From: Opitutales bacterium
GTDB lineage: Bacteria > Verrucomicrobiota > Verrucomicrobiia > Opitutales > UBA2995
Length of the DNA: 64,000 nt
Direction of reading: 5' to 3'
Assembly: GCA_022824405.1 (NCBI GenBank)
Contig: JAJDZZ010000021.1
Location: 1 to 64,000 of the forward strand
This document shows, piece by piece, positions 1 to 57,121 of this stretch; the first letter of the stretch is position 1; every line of letters starts with the position of its first letter. A program made the position numbers and the translations under genes. The notes under the pieces were generated by a model. It had not been told where the DNA came from. It searched no databases and saw nothing but the letters and a program-made list of their open reading frames with translations.

Positions 1-72
1 TGATCAGTGGCTAGCGGTCAGTGAAATATGTCTTTCGGTTAATGCTGGATGCTGGGTCCGTGACCTCAGTGC

Positions 73-102
73 AATCGCGGGATAAACCCGCTCCTACAGT
101 TT
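73..102 (-). repeat. REP-like hairpin repeat, copy 1
   Basis: This short palindromic unit contains the arms GCGGG and CCCGC around a short loop, followed by CTCCTACAGTTT. The same unit recurs at 5112-5140, 63679-63706 and 63729-63757 with compensatory changes in the stem (GCGGG, GCGGC, GGGGG). That pattern suggests the hairpin is conserved rather than the exact bases. It lies in a non-coding stretch upstream of a second repeat block. Confidence 0.7.
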
Positions 103-137
103 ATTTTGCCTTTATAATTCCATCTTCGCGTACCTCT

Positions 138-225
138 CGCCTCATTCCCCCACTCCACCATTCCATCATTCCATCTCTCCCCCATTCCTCATTCCTCATT
201 CCTCATTGGCACGCCTTAGCGCGCC
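138..225 (-). repeat. Right arm of a compound intergenic repeat
   Basis: This block holds a run of CCATTCCATCATTCC-type words (138-175), then ATTCCTC iterons (181-206), then a GC hairpin of the form GGCACGCC...GGCGCGCC ending at 225. The same order of iterons and hairpin forms the right arms of the elements at 2080-2323 and 63481-63825. The hairpin ends two bases from the stop codon of the sulfatase gene at 228. The left arm is not visible inside the window. Confidence 0.65.
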
Positions 226-227
226 TC

Positions 228-2033
228 TCATGGTGATCTGATGAACGGACCGGTGTAGGGGGGGCGCTCGAAACGGACCGGATTCTCTACTACGCGGGGA
301 TCGTTTTCGGCTACCAGGGTATCCATCAATTCCTGGCGGAGTTTCAATTTGATCTCTGCGTAGTCTTTCTGATCGGCCACGTTGGTGAGATAGTCGGGGT
401 CCTTGCGCAAGTCGTAGAGTTCTTCCTCGGGGCGTTTGGCTAGGGCATAGTCATAGAACCGACGATTTTCCGGCTCTTTGCGATGCTCGATAACCCACCT
501 CTTTGTTGGGCTGCCATCCAAGTCGCCAAAGCCTATGAAGGTGTTTTGCTCCAAAGCGTTGAGATCGGAAAATGAATCGTCCAGGACCACCCCTGGCGTT
601 CCCATGGGCCAGCGGTCCGGCTCAAAATTGCGGATATACAAAAATTCCCCGGTGCGGATGGCTCGCTGTGGATATGGTAAAAATCCTTCCCGAGCCGAAG
701 CGACGTGTCGCTCTCGCCCCAGTATCACAGAGTTGCGAGCCGGATCGATCCGACCCGATCCTTCAGCCAGAAAGAGGGGTATCAAATCGCGCTCAGCCAT
801 GCCTTCGGGAACAGGGGTTTGACCGGCTTTCAAAAAAGTCGGCGCCAATTCGCGCAGGTTGATAAAGTCACTCACTACCCTACCCGGCTCGATCTTTTCC
901 GGCCAACGAGCGGCCAAAGTTACTTCTGTGCCCAAATCATACAGATTGCATTTTGCCCGTGGTATGCCGGGAATGCCGTGATCCCCACTGATAACCACCA
1001 GGGTGTTATCCAGCTCACCCATTTCCTCCAACTTGTTTAAAATCAGGCCGATCCCGGCGTCCACGGCGAGACATTCTCCCAGATAGTCGTTTACGTCTTC
1101 CCGCACGTCGTGGACATCCGGAAGAAATTTTGGCAGCCGGCCCTTCAATTTATCGGGATCCAGGCCCCATATTGCTTGGCCCGAGCCCTTGGTCCACTTG
1201 CGATGGGTATTGGTCGGCCCCCACCAAAAGCAAAAAGGCTGTCCCTCTTCACGGTCGGCCATGAAGGCCTCGAAATTAGCCCTGACCTCATCGTATAATT
1301 CCTGCTTGGCGCCTTCGATTCCCAGCTTCGTAGCATTCCTACTGACGAATTGGGAGAAATTATTAAATTTGGTACCGCCCTGATGGTAGGCGGTCCTCTT
1401 TCCTCCGTAAGGCGCATGGGGAGGAGTACCCGGGGTCCAAACCTTGTAGGAGTATCCGATATGGTATCCTGCTTTTTCCAGCTCGAGAGGGAAAGAAGGT
1501 ATGTTCGGGTCCCAGACGGCGCCCTGCAAGATGGCTCCGCGTTCCGTATTCCAAAAATACCGGCCCGACAATAACGAGCTGCGACAGGGTGTGCAAGATG
1601 GAGCGGGAACGAAGGCGTTGGTAAATAAGACGCCTTCATTTGCGACTCGGTCGAAGTGAGGGGTGTCGATGAGAGCGCCGATCGACTGCGGCCCTTCCAC
1701 CTTTTCATAGGCGCTCGCATAACGGCCCCAGTCATCGGCGAAGAGAAAGACGATATTGGGGCGTCCATCGGCAAAAACCGAGCCTGTCGCCGCAACAAAG
1801 AGGATTAGCCCGAATATCTCACAAATCTTCTGCTGCGCTCCGGAATGACGGCGCTGGAGCGGATTTACCTGGATTTCCTGCCCGTGCTCCGCACAGATGC
1901 AGGCGGACTTTGCCGGGTGTCGACCCGGCTTCGCCCCCGAATCTGCACGAAACCCCCACCAGCACTCGACCTCCGTTCGCTCGCAACGAATTTTGTGAGA
2001 TATGCGGGATAGGAACGGTAAAATCGACTTCAT
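228..2033 (-). CDS. Sulfatase with a mobile-element insertion in its signal peptide
   Basis: This is a formylglycine-dependent sulfatase of the alkaline phosphatase superfamily, expected to remove sulfate esters from polysaccharides outside the cytoplasm. The metal-binding opening NIVFLFADDWG is followed by the modification motif CTPCR (C-X-P-C-R) and GRYFWNTERG. Later come SGDHGIPG and a C-terminal region that ends ELYDLRKDPDYL before the tail, all typical of the family. I chose ATG 2033 (601 aa) because it begins MKSILPFL, a plausible signal peptide start. A 201-bp inverted-repeat element (1809-2009) then adds 68 codons before the hydrophobic segment LILFVAATGSVFA resumes. Without the insert the N-terminus would be a textbook signal peptide. 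The frame is open through the insert, but export is probably impaired. No strong ribosome binding site is visible. Confidence 0.85.
   Translation of the reverse strand: MKSILPFLSRISHKIRCERTEVECWWGFRADSGAKPGRHPAKSACICAEHGQEIQVNPLQRRHSGAQQKICEIFGLILFVAATGSVFADGRPNIVFLFADDWGRYASAYEKVEGPQSIGALIDTPHFDRVANEGVLFTNAFVPAPSCTPCRSSLLSGRYFWNTERGAILQGAVWDPNIPSFPLELEKAGYHIGYSYKVWTPGTPPHAPYGGKRTAYHQGGTKFNNFSQFVSRNATKLGIEGAKQELYDEVRANFEAFMADREEGQPFCFWWGPTNTHRKWTKGSGQAIWGLDPDKLKGRLPKFLPDVHDVREDVNDYLGECLAVDAGIGLILNKLEEMGELDNTLVVISGDHGIPGIPRAKCNLYDLGTEVTLAARWPEKIEPGRVVSDFINLRELAPTFLKAGQTPVPEGMAERDLIPLFLAEGSGRIDPARNSVILGRERHVASAREGFLPYPQRAIRTGEFLYIRNFEPDRWPMGTPGVVLDDSFSDLNALEQNTFIGFGDLDGSPTKRWVIEHRKEPENRRFYDYALAKRPEEELYDLRKDPDYLTNVADQKDYAEIKLKLRQELMDTLVAENDPRVVENPVRFERPPYTGPFIRSP
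1809..2009. mobile_element. 201-bp inverted-repeat insertion element (MITE-like)
   Basis: The element is bounded by 17-base inverted repeats, CCCGAATATCTCACAAA at 1809-1825 and TTTGTGAGATATGCGGG at 1992-2008, matching at 16 of 17 positions. The trinucleotide TAG flanks it on both sides (1806-1808 and 2010-2012), consistent with a 3-bp target duplication. An internal palindrome GCCGGGTGTCGACCCGGC lies near 1909-1926. There is no transposase, so it would need an enzyme in trans. It is inserted in frame in the sulfatase signal peptide, adding 204 bp with the duplication and no stop codon. A sequence beginning CCCGAATATCTCGCAAA at 57002 resembles its end. Confidence 0.75.
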
Positions 2034-2079
2034 GGTTATCCCACAAGATAAAACAGAAATGCCCGAACGGCCAAGCATA

Positions 2080-2323
2080 GAGGCGCCCAAGGGCGCCAAT
2101 TAGGAATTAGGAATGGGGGAGAAAAGGATGAAGGCTGAAGGCTGAAAAGGGGAGAAGGGGAAAAACCACAGAGAACACAGAGAGGGAGAGGAGAGGGGAC
2201 TCTCGCAAAGATAGGCGCCATCGGCGCCTCTTCCCCCTTTGTGTCCTTGTGCCTTTGTGCCATCTCGCCCTGGCGAGATCCCATTCCTAATTCATAATTC
2301 CTCATTCGCGCGCCTTGGCGCGC
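2080..2323. repeat. Compound repeat element with inverted hairpin/iteron arms
   Basis: The left arm is the hairpin GGCGCCCAAGGGCGCC followed by AATTAGGAATTAGGAATGGGG. The right arm (2280-2323) is its inverted counterpart: CCATTCCTAATTCATAATTCC, then the hairpin GCGCGCCTTGGCGCGC. Between them are a CCACAGAGAACACAGAG module (about 2165), CTCTCGCAAAGAT (about 2201), a GGCGCC palindrome pair (about 2215-2230) and a CATCTCGCC/GGCGAGATC hairpin. All of these modules recur elsewhere in the window. The 244-bp size, inverted ends and lack of a gene suggest a non-autonomous mobile element. Open frames inside it are translations of repeats, not genes. Confidence 0.7.
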
Positions 2324-3501
2324 TTTCCCTCTTCATTGCCAATCAAACAGGCGGTCAAGGAGGGGGTCGGCTGGAAATCTCGAAGGACCCGGATCGTTTC
2401 CCCGTTTCGATGAAGGCGCACCTCGGGGACATTGATCTGCGGTGTTTTGTGGGGAGCGAAGAGAATATCGTCGTGGGTGGCGTTTTGTGCTTCCCGGAAC
2501 CGATCCGGGGTCAGGTGACCGCCCAGGTGATCGCTCCGGCCGGTAGCCACGTGCACGGTGCCGAGTATTTTTTCATCCTGAATGTCCCGATTGGAAACGG
2601 GGAGGACCTGGGTGCCGAAGCCGAGTTCGCCGATTTCGCCGGTGGCGGGATCGCTGACCATCTTGTCGTTGTGGGCATCGATCACCTTGGGGCTGCCTTC
2701 GAGCAGTTCGGCGGCCTGAATACGCCCATCGGAAACGTGCATGAGGCCGATGGTGCCGTCTTCATAAAGCAGGGGAAAACGGCCTTCCGCCCCGGTGGGG
2801 ACAAAATACACCTCACCGGCGGGGAGGTTGGCGATGTCGGGTTCTTTCCCCAGGCACAGGCCGTGGCTTTTCTGGGCCTCCTGTCCATCGAGCATCAGTT
2901 TGAGGGTGTGTTTTTGGCCCTTTACCTCAAAATCGATTTCCGCCCAATCGGAACGGGTCATGTGGAGGCGCAATTTCTCGGCTTGGGCGGATACTTCCCG
3001 GTAATCCACGGCCAGACCCGACCGCAGAATAGTGTCATTCATACCGTGCATGGTGGCGCCGCGGAAACCCCATTGCCTGGCCGAGGCGGTCAAAGGCGCG
3101 GTGGCAGATTCGGTGGAAATGCAGAGAATGAGATCGTACGGTTTATAGATGTGTTCGACCAGGCTGAGGCGGTTGCCTTGGGGGTCGCAACAATCTTCCG
3201 GCAGGTCGAGATTGGAGCCTCCGGTGCGCTTGTAGGCGTAGATTTGGCCTCCGTTCAGCCCCAACTCCCGCAGGACACCCTCCTTGAACCCAAGGTAGAA
3301 TTTGTCGTAAGCGTGGCGTTGAATGGTTAGGGACGCATCCTCGAGGAAGGCGAAGCCCTTCATCAGGGAAGGATCATCCAAGTCAATCAAGATACATATC
3401 TTTTCCCCGGGATCCGGTTGGAATACCGTTTTCAATAAGCGGCCCAGATTGAAGGGAGGGAAAGTCTTAAGCTCTTCTTCTGTGGTTTGAATGTCTATCA
3501 C
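2302..3501 (-). CDS. Aminopeptidase T (M29)-like metallopeptidase
   Basis: The 399-residue protein resembles the leucyl aminopeptidase/aminopeptidase T family (M29). These are cytoplasmic dinuclear metal exopeptidases that usually have about 370-410 residues. Supporting motifs are the central AGEVYFVPTGAEGRFP segment, then GELGFGTQ, then LGTVHVATGRSDHLGG and DDILFAPHKTP near the C-terminus, which place Glu, His and Asp residues where the family binds metal. No signal peptide is seen. It lies 34 bp after the cystathionine synthase gene on the same strand, so they may be co-transcribed. The last residues, KRAKARE, and the TGA stop are encoded by the right hairpin arm of the repeat element at 2080-2323, so the original C-terminus has probably been replaced. 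Confidence 0.75.
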   Translation of the reverse strand: MIDIQTTEEELKTFPPFNLGRLLKTVFQPDPGEKICILIDLDDPSLMKGFAFLEDASLTIQRHAYDKFYLGFKEGVLRELGLNGGQIYAYKRTGGSNLDLPEDCCDPQGNRLSLVEHIYKPYDLILCISTESATAPLTASARQWGFRGATMHGMNDTILRSGLAVDYREVSAQAEKLRLHMTRSDWAEIDFEVKGQKHTLKLMLDGQEAQKSHGLCLGKEPDIANLPAGEVYFVPTGAEGRFPLLYEDGTIGLMHVSDGRIQAAELLEGSPKVIDAHNDKMVSDPATGEIGELGFGTQVLPVSNRDIQDEKILGTVHVATGRSDHLGGHLTPDRFREAQNATHDDILFAPHKTPQINVPEVRLHRNGETIRVLRDFQPTPSLTACLIGNEEGKRAKARE

Positions 3502-3535
3502 GGCGAGTTAATGTGAGGGTTATGGCTGGTGATGA

Positions 3536-5104
3536 TCAAAGCGTCTCATCGAATGCGTCAATAATTTGCTCGATGGGCTCAACCCCGACGGAAATGCGAA
3601 CGAGGTCCGGATTGATACCATAATTCATTAATTCCATGCGACCGGCCGGGTCGGAGACAATGTCGTAATGGGCCATGTACATGTAGGGGCAAATGAGGGT
3701 CCGGACCATACCGAAACTCGGCCCCTTGCTGATACGGCAGGGATCGTAAACCCGGGCCAGGGGCTTAGCCAGGTCGATGGTAATCATGCAGCCCGGGGAT
3801 CGGTCGCCTCTCTCGATTTTTCGATACCGCTCCCTGTTGGTGTCACCGTAGGCCCAGTATACTTTTTTGACCCCGGGGTGTTGTTGCAGATACCGGGCCA
3901 GTTTGAGGGTGTTGGCATTGACGGTACGAGCCACGGTCTGACAATGGGGCAGTTGTTGGGCCACCCGTTCAACGTCGCGATAATAGGGCGGCTCCACGTA
4001 ATGAGGGACAATGGCTTTGAGTTCGGAGTGAAAGGGAGATTGGGGATTGAGGGCGAGGAGTCCCATCATCACATCCCCCTCGTGCGCGATGTATTTGGTC
4101 AAGCTGGTCACCAGAACATCGCAATAGGGCATGGTATCCACATTGAGAATGGAGCTCACGGTCGGATCGACCATCAGAACCACGCCGTGGAGGCGGGAAA
4201 GCTCGATCAAACGATCCGCATCGGGCGTTTGCAGCAAGGGATTGGTGGGAAATTCGGCGATTATTCCGGCCACTTCCTGGCCGCGCTCATCCAAAATTGA
4301 AGCCAACCGATCGAGATCGGTCGGGTCCGGGATGAGGATTTTCTTGTCCCCTTCCCCAGGAAACTTGTTGAGGATTTCGTAGGTATCGACGTAGAGCCAA
4401 CCCAATTGAATCCAGAGGGTCCGCGATTTGGCGGCCTGGAGATCCCGGATGGCGTTGAAGGCGGCAAAAACGGAACTCATGCCGGAGGCGGTTAGCCATA
4501 CATCTTCTTGGCGGACAGAGCCGACAGCCTCGCTTAACGCATCTCGAACGGTTGTGGAAGGTTGTAAGGAGGGCCGCTCCGGATTTGCTCCCGGGATCAA
4601 CCCGTTCCGGAGGAGCAGGTCTTCGGCTTCCCGTGAGGAAATGCGGACCCCGGTATGTTGCAAAAATTTCCGGGCCTTTTCCTCCGCCTCCCCGCCGCGG
4701 ACAACCGAAACGACGGCGCGGGATTCATCGGAAAAAAGCCTTACCCGGTCAATTCCGACATAGCGCTGCAAGGCTTTGGCGGCATGGAGGGAGCACAGGC
4801 AAAACACCACCCTGTCCCGCAATTGGAGGCGGGTCTGCAAATTGGCTTCCCATTGCAACACCCAATGATGGGAAACAAACCTCGGATAGGCCACCTTGAG
4901 ACGGGCAACCGCCTCGGGCAGCCTCTCCTCATATTGGACAACGTTCTCCATAGTCGGAAAACTACAGGATACCGCGTGCGGCAAATGGGGTATAGGCCGG
5001 GCAAAGGGTATCTGGACGGAAGGTATTTCCACGGAACGATTTTGGACGGGGAAGTTTGGAAGCCAACCAACCGGCCAGAGGAATTCAACCGTTTTCTCCG
5101 CCAT
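3536..5104 (-). CDS. Cystathionine gamma-synthase, fungal-type (PLP-dependent)
   Basis: This is a Cys/Met-metabolism PLP enzyme of fold type I that would join an activated homoserine with cysteine to make cystathionine. The C-terminal two thirds carry the family core, including the PLP lysine in LVTSLTKYIAHEGDVMMG and the closing RISVGVEPIEQIIDAF. The N-terminus carries RPIPHLPHAVSCSFP and NVVQYEE, which match the long N-terminal domain of STR2-type enzymes; the shorter bacterial MetB enzymes lack it. That match requires ATG 5104 (522 aa) rather than the internal ATG at 4951. The leader just before the start is a REP-like hairpin (5112-5140), leaving no clear ribosome binding site. MetA, which would supply the substrate, is encoded at the other end of the window. 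Confidence 0.8.
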   Translation of the reverse strand: MAEKTVEFLWPVGWLPNFPVQNRSVEIPSVQIPFARPIPHLPHAVSCSFPTMENVVQYEERLPEAVARLKVAYPRFVSHHWVLQWEANLQTRLQLRDRVVFCLCSLHAAKALQRYVGIDRVRLFSDESRAVVSVVRGGEAEEKARKFLQHTGVRISSREAEDLLLRNGLIPGANPERPSLQPSTTVRDALSEAVGSVRQEDVWLTASGMSSVFAAFNAIRDLQAAKSRTLWIQLGWLYVDTYEILNKFPGEGDKKILIPDPTDLDRLASILDERGQEVAGIIAEFPTNPLLQTPDADRLIELSRLHGVVLMVDPTVSSILNVDTMPYCDVLVTSLTKYIAHEGDVMMGLLALNPQSPFHSELKAIVPHYVEPPYYRDVERVAQQLPHCQTVARTVNANTLKLARYLQQHPGVKKVYWAYGDTNRERYRKIERGDRSPGCMITIDLAKPLARVYDPCRISKGPSFGMVRTLICPYMYMAHYDIVSDPAGRMELMNYGINPDLVRISVGVEPIEQIIDAFDETL

Positions 5105-11351: not shown

Positions 11352-12992
11352 ATGCGAATCGGCATCGCGCAGATCAACACCACCGTGGGTCATTTGGAAG
11401 GCAATCGGATCAAAATCATCCGAGCCTACAGACGATTGTGCGGAAAGGGGGCCGAACTGGTCCTGTTTCCGGAATTGGCCGTAACCGGATACCCGCCGAG
11501 GGACTTGTTGTTCAAAGGCAGGTTTGTTGCGGATAATGAAGATTCTCTTCGGCAGATTGCCCGCCGAGTCGGGAACGTTCCCCTGCTCATCGGTTTCGTG
11601 GAAGCAAATCCCATGGAAGAAGGCCGCGATTTTTTCAATGCGGCGGCCTGGTGCCACGATGGCCAGGTGGAAAAAAAATTTCACAAGACCCTTCTCCCTT
11701 CCTATGACGTGTTCGACGAGGACCGCTACTTCCATCCTGCAGAGGGACCCGGCGCCCTTTACTTCAAGGGCCTCAAGATAGGGGTAACGATTTGCGAGGA
11801 CATTTGGACTCATCCGGTGATTGCAGGCGGAAAACGGTATCCCCTGGATCCCTTGGAAATACTGGCGGAAGGCAAGGTCGATCTGGTCCTGAATCTCTCC
11901 GCAAGTCCCTGGCACAATGAAAAAAACGATTTACGCAAGGCCCTTCTCAGTGAAACTGCCCGGAAATGCGGTTGCCCGGTGGTTTACTGCAATGCGGTTG
12001 GCGGCAACGACGAATTGATCTTCGACGGCCGCAGCCTGGCGGCCGATGCCGAAGGCCGGATTATCGCCGGCCTCGAAGCATTCAGGGAAGACCTCAGGGT
12101 AGTGGATCTTCCGCACGGGCCGGAAAATTTCGCCCCGACCTTTGTCCAATCCGAAATGAACGATATCCACGATGCGCTCGTGTTGGGACTGAAGGATTAC
12201 GTGCGGAAGTGCGGATTCAAGCGGGTCCTGGTTGGCCTGAGCGGTGGAATCGATTCCGCCGTCACAGCCGCCATTGCCAGGGCCGCTCTGGGAGCCGAAA
12301 ATGTCATCGGCATCAGCCTTCCCTCGGAAATTTCCAGTCAACACAGCAGGGATGATGCCCGCGGTCTCGCCCAAAACCTGGGCATCGAATTTCACTACCT
12401 TCCCATAGCCGAAGTAGTGGCGGCGGCGGAGTCTGCCCTGGCCGACCTGTTTCGCGATCGAAAGCGGGACGTAACAGAAGAAAACATCCAGGCCCGTGCC
12501 CGCGGACTACTCCTCATGGCCCTTTCCAATAAATTCGGGGCCCTGTTGCTGACCACTGGAAACAAAAGCGAACTCGCCGTTGGGTATTGCACCCTCTACG
12601 GCGACATGTGCGGCGGGCTGGCGGTCATCTCGGATTTACCCAAAACCAAGGTTTACGAACTGGCGCGTCATATTAACCGGAAGGGTGAAATCATCCCTCG
12701 GTCGACTCTGACCAAGCCACCTTCCGCCGAGTTGCGGCCCGATCAGAAGGACGAAGACAGCTTGCCCCCTTACGACGTCCTGGATGCCATCCTCAAAGCC
12801 TACGTGGAAGAGGGACTATCCCGACGGGACATTGCCGGCATGGGTTACGATCCGAAAATGGTTTCCGACGTGGTTCGAATGGTGGACCTCAATGAATACA
12901 AGCGCAAACAAGCCGCTCCCGGCCTGAAGATAACCCCTTTGGCTTTCGGGGTGGGACGGCGTATTCCCATCGTGCAAAAGTATGTGAATTGA
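11352..12992 (+). CDS. nadE: Glutamine-dependent NAD+ synthetase
   Basis: This enzyme catalyses the last step of NAD biosynthesis, amidating deamido-NAD with glutamine nitrogen. The 546-residue protein fuses a nitrilase-like glutaminase domain (about 1-265) to the synthetase domain (about 270-546). The glutaminase triad is visible as Glu in [11 protein letters not shown], Lys in [15 protein letters not shown], and Cys in VTICEDIW. The synthetase P-loop is [15 protein letters not shown], and [20 protein letters not shown] and [16 protein letters not shown] follow as expected. The C-terminus is complete. The stop codon lies 10 bp from the convergent VOC gene. Confidence 0.95.
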
Positions 12993-13002
12993 GAAATGCG
13001 GG

Positions 13003-13365
13003 CTAAGGTTTAAACTCAGTCAACTCGATTACGTGCCCATCCGGATCGCACAAGAACAGTTGCAGGGGTCCATCGGGGCGGTGCTTGGGCCCCATATAGG
13101 CCACATCGAGGGCGTTGAGGTGGGCCTGAGCGGCGGACATATCGGCCACCCGGTAGGCGGTGTGACGATCGGGGGGAGTGGTATTGGCGGTAGGCGACAG
13201 GATAAGGTGGAGTTCCTGGCCGGGACCGGTTTGAAACCAGGCCCCATCGAATTCGAATTTGGGCCGCAGGATCCGCCTGAGCTTCAATACGTCCCGATAA
13301 AAGGCCACACTCCTATCCAGATTGGTTACATGGATAGCCGTATGATTCAGTTGATTGATCTCCAC
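13003..13365 (-). CDS. VOC-family (glyoxalase-like) protein
   Basis: A small vicinal oxygen chelate fold protein of 120 residues, a group that includes glyoxalase I, fosfomycin-resistance proteins and dioxygenases. The N-terminal strand INQLNHTAIHVTNLDRSVAFYRDVL is the classic first half-site with a metal-binding His. The C-terminal PLQLFLCDPDGHVIELTEF supplies the second half-site with a terminal Glu. I placed the start at GTG 13365 because no ATG lies in the conserved region and residues upstream of it look non-coding. That upstream sequence forms the 47-bp gap to the divergent phosphatase gene. The substrate cannot be deduced. Confidence 0.8.
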   Translation of the reverse strand: MEINQLNHTAIHVTNLDRSVAFYRDVLKLRRILRPKFEFDGAWFQTGPGQELHLILSPTANTTPPDRHTAYRVADMSAAQAHLNALDVAYMGPKHRPDGPLQLFLCDPDGHVIELTEFKP

Positions 13366-56963: not shown

Positions 56964-57121
56964 TCGTGATCATGATCGTTATCCAAAAGAACGGGATTAA
57001 CCCGAATATCTCGCAAAGCTCGCTAAGAGGGGGACGGGAATGTCCCCCCTCCGTTAACTCCTGATCCGGCGAAGCCGGAACCCTTTGCGTCCTTCGCGAT
57101 CTTGGCGAGAGCCTTTTCCGG
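56933..57121. repeat. Compound intergenic repeat block with inverted CGCAAAG arms
   Basis: It begins with CCATCTCGCCAATGCGAGATGG, here split as CCATCTCGCC and GCGAGATGG around AAT. It continues with ATTAATCGTGATC, then CCCGAATATCTCGCAAAGC, GACGGGAATGTCCCCCC, GTTAACTCCTGATCC, the hairpin CCGGCGAAGCCGG, TTTGCGTCC, and CGATCTTGGCGAGAG. The CTCGCAAAG and CTTGGCGAGAG words at either end are inverted, so this block is itself a large imperfect palindrome. It separates dus from the convergent pseudouridine synthase gene and could act as a bidirectional terminator. Confidence 0.7.

Follow-up and report, generated by a model that had tools for sequence, protein, structure and literature searches.

The window (the whole stretch of 64,000 nucleotides that was analysed) contains a sulfatase gene whose minus-strand reading frame, from an ATG at position 2033 to a stop codon at 228–230, is open across a palindromic insert that lies within the signal peptide. 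Its product matches PF00884 (E 1.8e-28), the 523-residue frame is undamaged, as is the catalytic motif, and relatives are present in 25 of the 36 genomes searched. The two ends of the insert are complementary at 16 of 17 positions, as the initial annotation of this DNA had noted; the same annotation described a 201-bp element flanked by TAG, and an inserted repeat is indeed present, but the element is 200 bp long and the flanking duplication 4 bp (TTAG/ATAG). Together with one copy of the duplication it forms a net insert of 204 bp, or 68 codons without a stop, just as first described. Its RNA is predicted to fold into one hairpin of -102.8 kcal/mol (z -6.45), a stability equalled by 0 of 200 shuffled sequences, and an Rfam search of window positions 1–4000 gave no match. 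The features are collected in Table 1, in which G000 is the window's own genome (contigs are C-numbered), G001 is a second, congeneric species, and G002 through G005 belong to a sister genus.

Table 1. The interrupted sulfatase gene (window coordinates) and the other genes with in-frame copies (genome and contig)
Feature	Position	Strand	Site in gene	Basis
Sulfatase gene with in-frame insertion	228..2033	-		Open frame, Pfam Sulfatase match, intact catalytic CTPCR motif
Palindromic MITE, 200 bp, CCCG...CGGG	1809..2008			45 own-genome matches; missing at orthologous G001 site; one long hairpin
Target-site duplication, left copy TTAG	1805..1808			Family-wide 4-bp YTAR duplication
Target-site duplication, right copy ATAG (one mismatch)	2009..2012			Family-wide 4-bp YTAR duplication
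Left terminal inverted repeat CCCGAATATCTCACAAA	1809..1825	+		Complementarity to right end
Right terminal inverted repeat TTTGTGAGATATGCGGG	1992..2008	-		Complementarity to left end
Original start codon and first half of signal peptide, MKSILPFL	2010..2033	-		Aligns with G001 KSIFPLL, protein and DNA
Second half of signal peptide, LILFVAATGSVFAD, element-encoded CEIFG now before it	1767..1808	-		Alignment to G001
PSCyt1/2-domain protein	G000 C17		Directly after signal peptide	Empty in G001 (DSAQAGLPHARQ)
AraC-family regulator	G000 C88		N-terminal half	Empty in G003
ThiE-like protein	G000 C51		Near C-terminus	Empty in G001
YidD	G000 and G001, shared insertion			Without element in G002, G003, G004
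DnaE2-like DNA polymerase III alpha	G001		Between NTPase and finger domains	CTAG both sides; uninterrupted in G000, G002, G003, G004
GH39	G001		C-terminal region	More distant homologues align across site

The sulfatase orthologue of G001 is 91% identical to the window protein and lacks exactly the 68 residues, which is the gap that the initial annotation had proposed to look for. Its empty site reads KSIFPLLSLFATAAGSLFAD, where G000 has KSILPFL, the 68 residues and then ILFVAATGSVFAD; in the N-terminal alignment the same junction is KSIFPLLSLFATAAGSLFADERPN in G001 and KSILPFL, the 68 residues and ILFVAATGSVFADGRPN in the window gene. The orthologues of G002 through G005 have ordinary short signal peptides. 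Because the orthologues are uninterrupted, the two flanks belong to one gene, and an assembly chimera is a very unlikely origin for the insert; since the sister-species orthologue is without these 68 residues, the insert is a lineage-specific MITE insertion, most likely made after the split of the genus's two species. The G001 gene lies at a contig end (last 50 bases, C319:17040-17089), where no in-frame ATG, GTG or TTG is found before the signal peptide and an in-frame TGA precedes it; either the contig end is in error here or the start has been lost, and the N-terminus of that protein is uncertain.

Other copies of the element abound, and with the empty G001 site they bear out the early suggestion of a MITE-like mobile element in the signal peptide region; orthologues sharing the 68 residues, or an element without further copies, were the two outcomes at odds with it, and neither was encountered. 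The copy census was built from sequence searches and individually retrieved stretches. A BLAST search of the own genome with the element found at least 45 copies; terminal-repeat sites with at most 3 mismatches number 134 there, against 15 for a reversed control pattern, and those with at most 2 mismatches number 300 in G001, against 0 in the control. A profile of the element peptide gave 45 matches in G000 and 163 in G001, some elements being counted piecewise. The G000 copy number is a lower bound, because several contigs (C83, C82, C56 and C68) end within element copies. The other 34 relatives gave just one short match (G003, E 2.9e-4), and the family thus seems to be confined in the main to this uncultured Opitutales genus. 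Its ends have the form CCCGNATNTCTCAC, and net lengths of 177 bp are the most frequent, with further forms of 204 (+27), 201 (+24), 228 (+51) and 168 bp and with many shorter copies of about 130–140 bp in G001. Several copies (among L007, L010, L013, L023 and L006) have a 24-bp module of the TTACCGAGCGAATGCGACATCTCC type near one end, and several of the same set have a 27-bp internal module; both lengths are multiples of 3. With the 27-bp module left out, the window copy is 94–95% identical to its nearest own-genome relatives. Twenty 177-bp copies gave a consensus structure of 41 pairs, of which 5 show compensated changes.

Of 70 paired copies, 39 have the same 4 bp on both sides, 14.8 being expected after shuffling of partners, and the consensus of these flanks is YTAR. 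Where the left flank is not itself palindromic (31 copies), there are 10 direct matches and 0 reverse-complement matches; the palindrome does not simply run on into the flanks, and YTAR is a genuine duplication, since they match directly and never as the reverse complement. The 4-bp consensus of these 70 copies rules out a 3-bp TAG duplication, and the one-base mismatch in the window's own duplication is a point against the explanation given below. A short element with terminal inverted repeats (200 bp and 16/17 at the window), a direct duplication of fixed length (4 bp) and numerous scattered copies that have no transposase gene are the marks of a MITE. YTAR is also the duplication motif of IS5 (PMC10359306), and the family shares it with the IS5 group, from which it differs in having no transposase gene and in terminal repeats that match no IS examined. 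Among the DDE_Tnp_1 genes of the two draft genomes, which are incomplete, none was found with element-matching ends. A complete IS5-family transposase gene (DUF772 plus DDE_Tnp_1) lies about 660 bp from a MITE copy on G000 C49 (L140 1468-2475); its candidate ends differ from those of the element, and it was rejected as the parent. The duplication motif points to a putative IS5-like DDE transposase, acting in trans, as the mobiliser.

Besides the sulfatase, at least six unrelated genes hold in-frame copies (Table 1). Most other copies examined are intergenic, and inspection of the joined-site ORFs of the 70 paired copies yielded no convincing gene disruption; among the candidates, L029 (which sits between MacA-like and ABC-transporter genes), L109 and L134 turned out to be intergenic or antisense, and L094 a relic. 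In all seven intragenic insertions that were verified, the reading enters the element in a single phase, that of the YTA codon. Of the possible combinations of copy and orientation, those that preserve an ORF make up 44% in G000 and 23% in G001 in this phase (phase A, YTA R), as against 2% in phase B and 0% in phase C. YTAR cannot occur in a gene with TAR as a codon, because TAR is a stop, and the element nearly always supplies a stop codon when read in the phase xYT ARx. As all seven insertions are in the YTA R phase, special frame-keeping machinery is unnecessary, and the main mechanism of in-frame residence is target-phase arithmetic with survivorship. From the lack of disrupted genes we infer that wrong-phase insertions break genes and are lost. 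The family repeatedly generates in-frame fusions.

We are thus highly confident that the element is a non-autonomous MITE with YTAR duplications, moved by a putative IS5-like DDE transposase, and that it entered the sulfatase gene after the species split and persists there in frame. In this account a MITE mobilised in trans inserted, with its 4-bp duplication, at a YTA codon for leucine in the signal-peptide part of the sulfatase gene, and it persists because the net insert of 68 codons, read via YTA|R, is free of stops. Of the three possible phases, the TAR phase is excluded within genes, the second stops in the element and the third stays open for between a quarter and almost half of the combinations of copy and orientation, gene-killing insertions being lost.

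The hydrophobic core of the sulfatase signal peptide is broken in two by the element. The initial annotation saw either a loss of export or an element selected to insert without breaking frames in a protein that tolerates it; loss of export is not the sole alternative, because the element's last codons (CEIFGL) adjoin ILFVAATGSVFA and rebuild a hydrophobic stretch beside the old cleavage site. The best 9-residue hydropathy is 3.09 (IFGLILFVA), compared with 3.18 for the original ILPFLILFV, so export may survive. In a structure model the insert has pLDDT values of 23–30 and the catalytic domain is well folded; the insert is accordingly modelled as a probably disordered segment ahead of an intact catalytic domain, and it is possible that the sulfatase is still made and exported with such an N-terminal extension. 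The -103 kcal/mol hairpin, about 20 nt past the start codon, may depress its translation or expression. A stronger effect, which we think somewhat improbable but take seriously, is that the insertion inactivates the sulfatase, either because export is abolished or because the hairpin blocks expression, and that the gene is an early pseudogene. The split signal peptide with its positively charged start 68 residues away, the strength of the hairpin so close to the start, and the lack of any in-frame ATG, GTG or TTG within the element are in keeping with inactivation, whereas the undamaged frame and catalytic motif and the rebuilt hydrophobic core speak for a working gene, as does YidD, whose core, with a like insert, has been under purifying selection throughout the divergence of the species (dN 0.07–0.08, dS 0.25–0.30, dN/dS 0.30).

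No selection on the peptide that the MITE encodes is visible in either a six-frame tree test or the YidD dN/dS values. When changes were placed by parsimony on a tree of 41 copies, those of the nonsense, missense and synonymous classes all came close to the neutral expectation, whichever of the six frames was read; in the one frame that had seemed short of stops there are 4 nonsense changes, about 7 being expected, and 326 missense changes against 311–323. The YidD insert, shared by the two species, has dN 0.14–0.15 and dS 0.10–0.12 (dN/dS about 1.2–1.4), so that YidD looks constrained and its insert unconstrained, which suggests an insert that is tolerated and not selected. The initial annotation had offered the contrary as one of its two alternatives, an element selected to keep frames open, which would make this an ORF-preserving family that colonises genes safely by remaining open in one frame. 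Such a history is improbable: the main lengths (177, 204, 201, 228 and 168 bp) are all multiples of 3, the seven verified insertions share their codon phase, and one frame has 4 stops where 15.8 are expected if copies are treated as independent, but this apparent deficit vanished once the tree accounted for relatedness, many copies of 130–140 bp and many intergenic copies have lengths that are not multiples of 3, and dN/dS of the YidD insert is above 1.

On G000 C76 (8407-9285; L078 1507-2386) a RAYT-like (HUH, REP-associated) gene lies between two family ends about 880 bp apart; it bears its own GTAG-type palindromes, and the arrangement is perhaps a nested insertion. That the family is a REP-like repeat mobilised by a RAYT (HUH) transposase, and not a DDE MITE, is very improbable, for although the elements are palindromic and multi-copy and this one RAYT-like gene sits between two of their terminal repeats, direct 4-bp duplications are unexpected under HUH transposition, an element of about 200 bp exceeds the 20–40 bp of REP palindromes (which have no duplication), G000 and G001 each have only one close RAYT match, and the C76 gene, with GTAG repeats of its own, was rejected as mobiliser.

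An ORF-preserving MITE, which the initial annotation called unusual, is so, but there are precedents in Rickettsia, Wolbachia and the enterobacterial ERIC/RU repeats (PMC10969869, PMC3767692, PMC2759123). The RPE of Rickettsia are palindromic repeats of ~100–150 bp found in frame within unrelated genes, and RPE and Wolbachia palindromic element inserts appear to be tolerated and solvent-exposed (PMC10969869, PMC3767692). Compared by description, the present elements are like them in being short palindromes in frame within unrelated genes (seven here), and unlike RPE in their host (uncultured Opitutales, not Rickettsiales), their size of 173–224 bp, their clear 4-bp YTAR duplications, the intergenic position of most examined copies and the neutral evolution of the peptide. 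ERIC/RU are MITE-like repeats of 103–168 bp that are fused in frame to genes, among them a case with a predicted signal peptide (Y. pestis YPO1552; PMC2759123); the likeness is again one of description, and the present family differs in its documented target duplications and its orthologues with empty sites. A literature search, with most subscription journals outside its coverage, found no such family described in Verrucomicrobiota. We regard it as a separate IS5-like MITE family of a verrucomicrobial genus, apart from the Rickettsia elements. Our opinion is evenly divided on whether it is a verrucomicrobial coding palindrome in the Rickettsia style, in which YTAR and the terminal sequence lock genic insertions into one translatable phase and so add neutral peptides. 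If it is, working proteins, among them exported enzymes and a DNA polymerase, are steadily gaining neutral peptides of ~44–76 residues from a selfish element. Hitherto, in-frame palindromic inserts have been seen as peculiar to Rickettsiales apart from some cases in enterobacteria, and a 2024 review considered it conceivable that MITEs modified proteins likewise in other prokaryotes (PMC10969869). For uncultured Verrucomicrobiota, the empty sites, the target duplications and the test for neutral evolution reported here document this process and make the question of selection versus tolerance directly testable.

In a PBP_like_2 (phosphate-binding-type) gene of G001 (C13; L262 1501-1680) an element copy lies at the extreme N-terminus, where it supplies the ATG and first residues, MKCGI, of an apparent signal peptide. 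Elsewhere in the window, single terminal-repeat-like sites with 2 mismatches each at 12986-13005 and 56998-57017 are possibly relics of the element.
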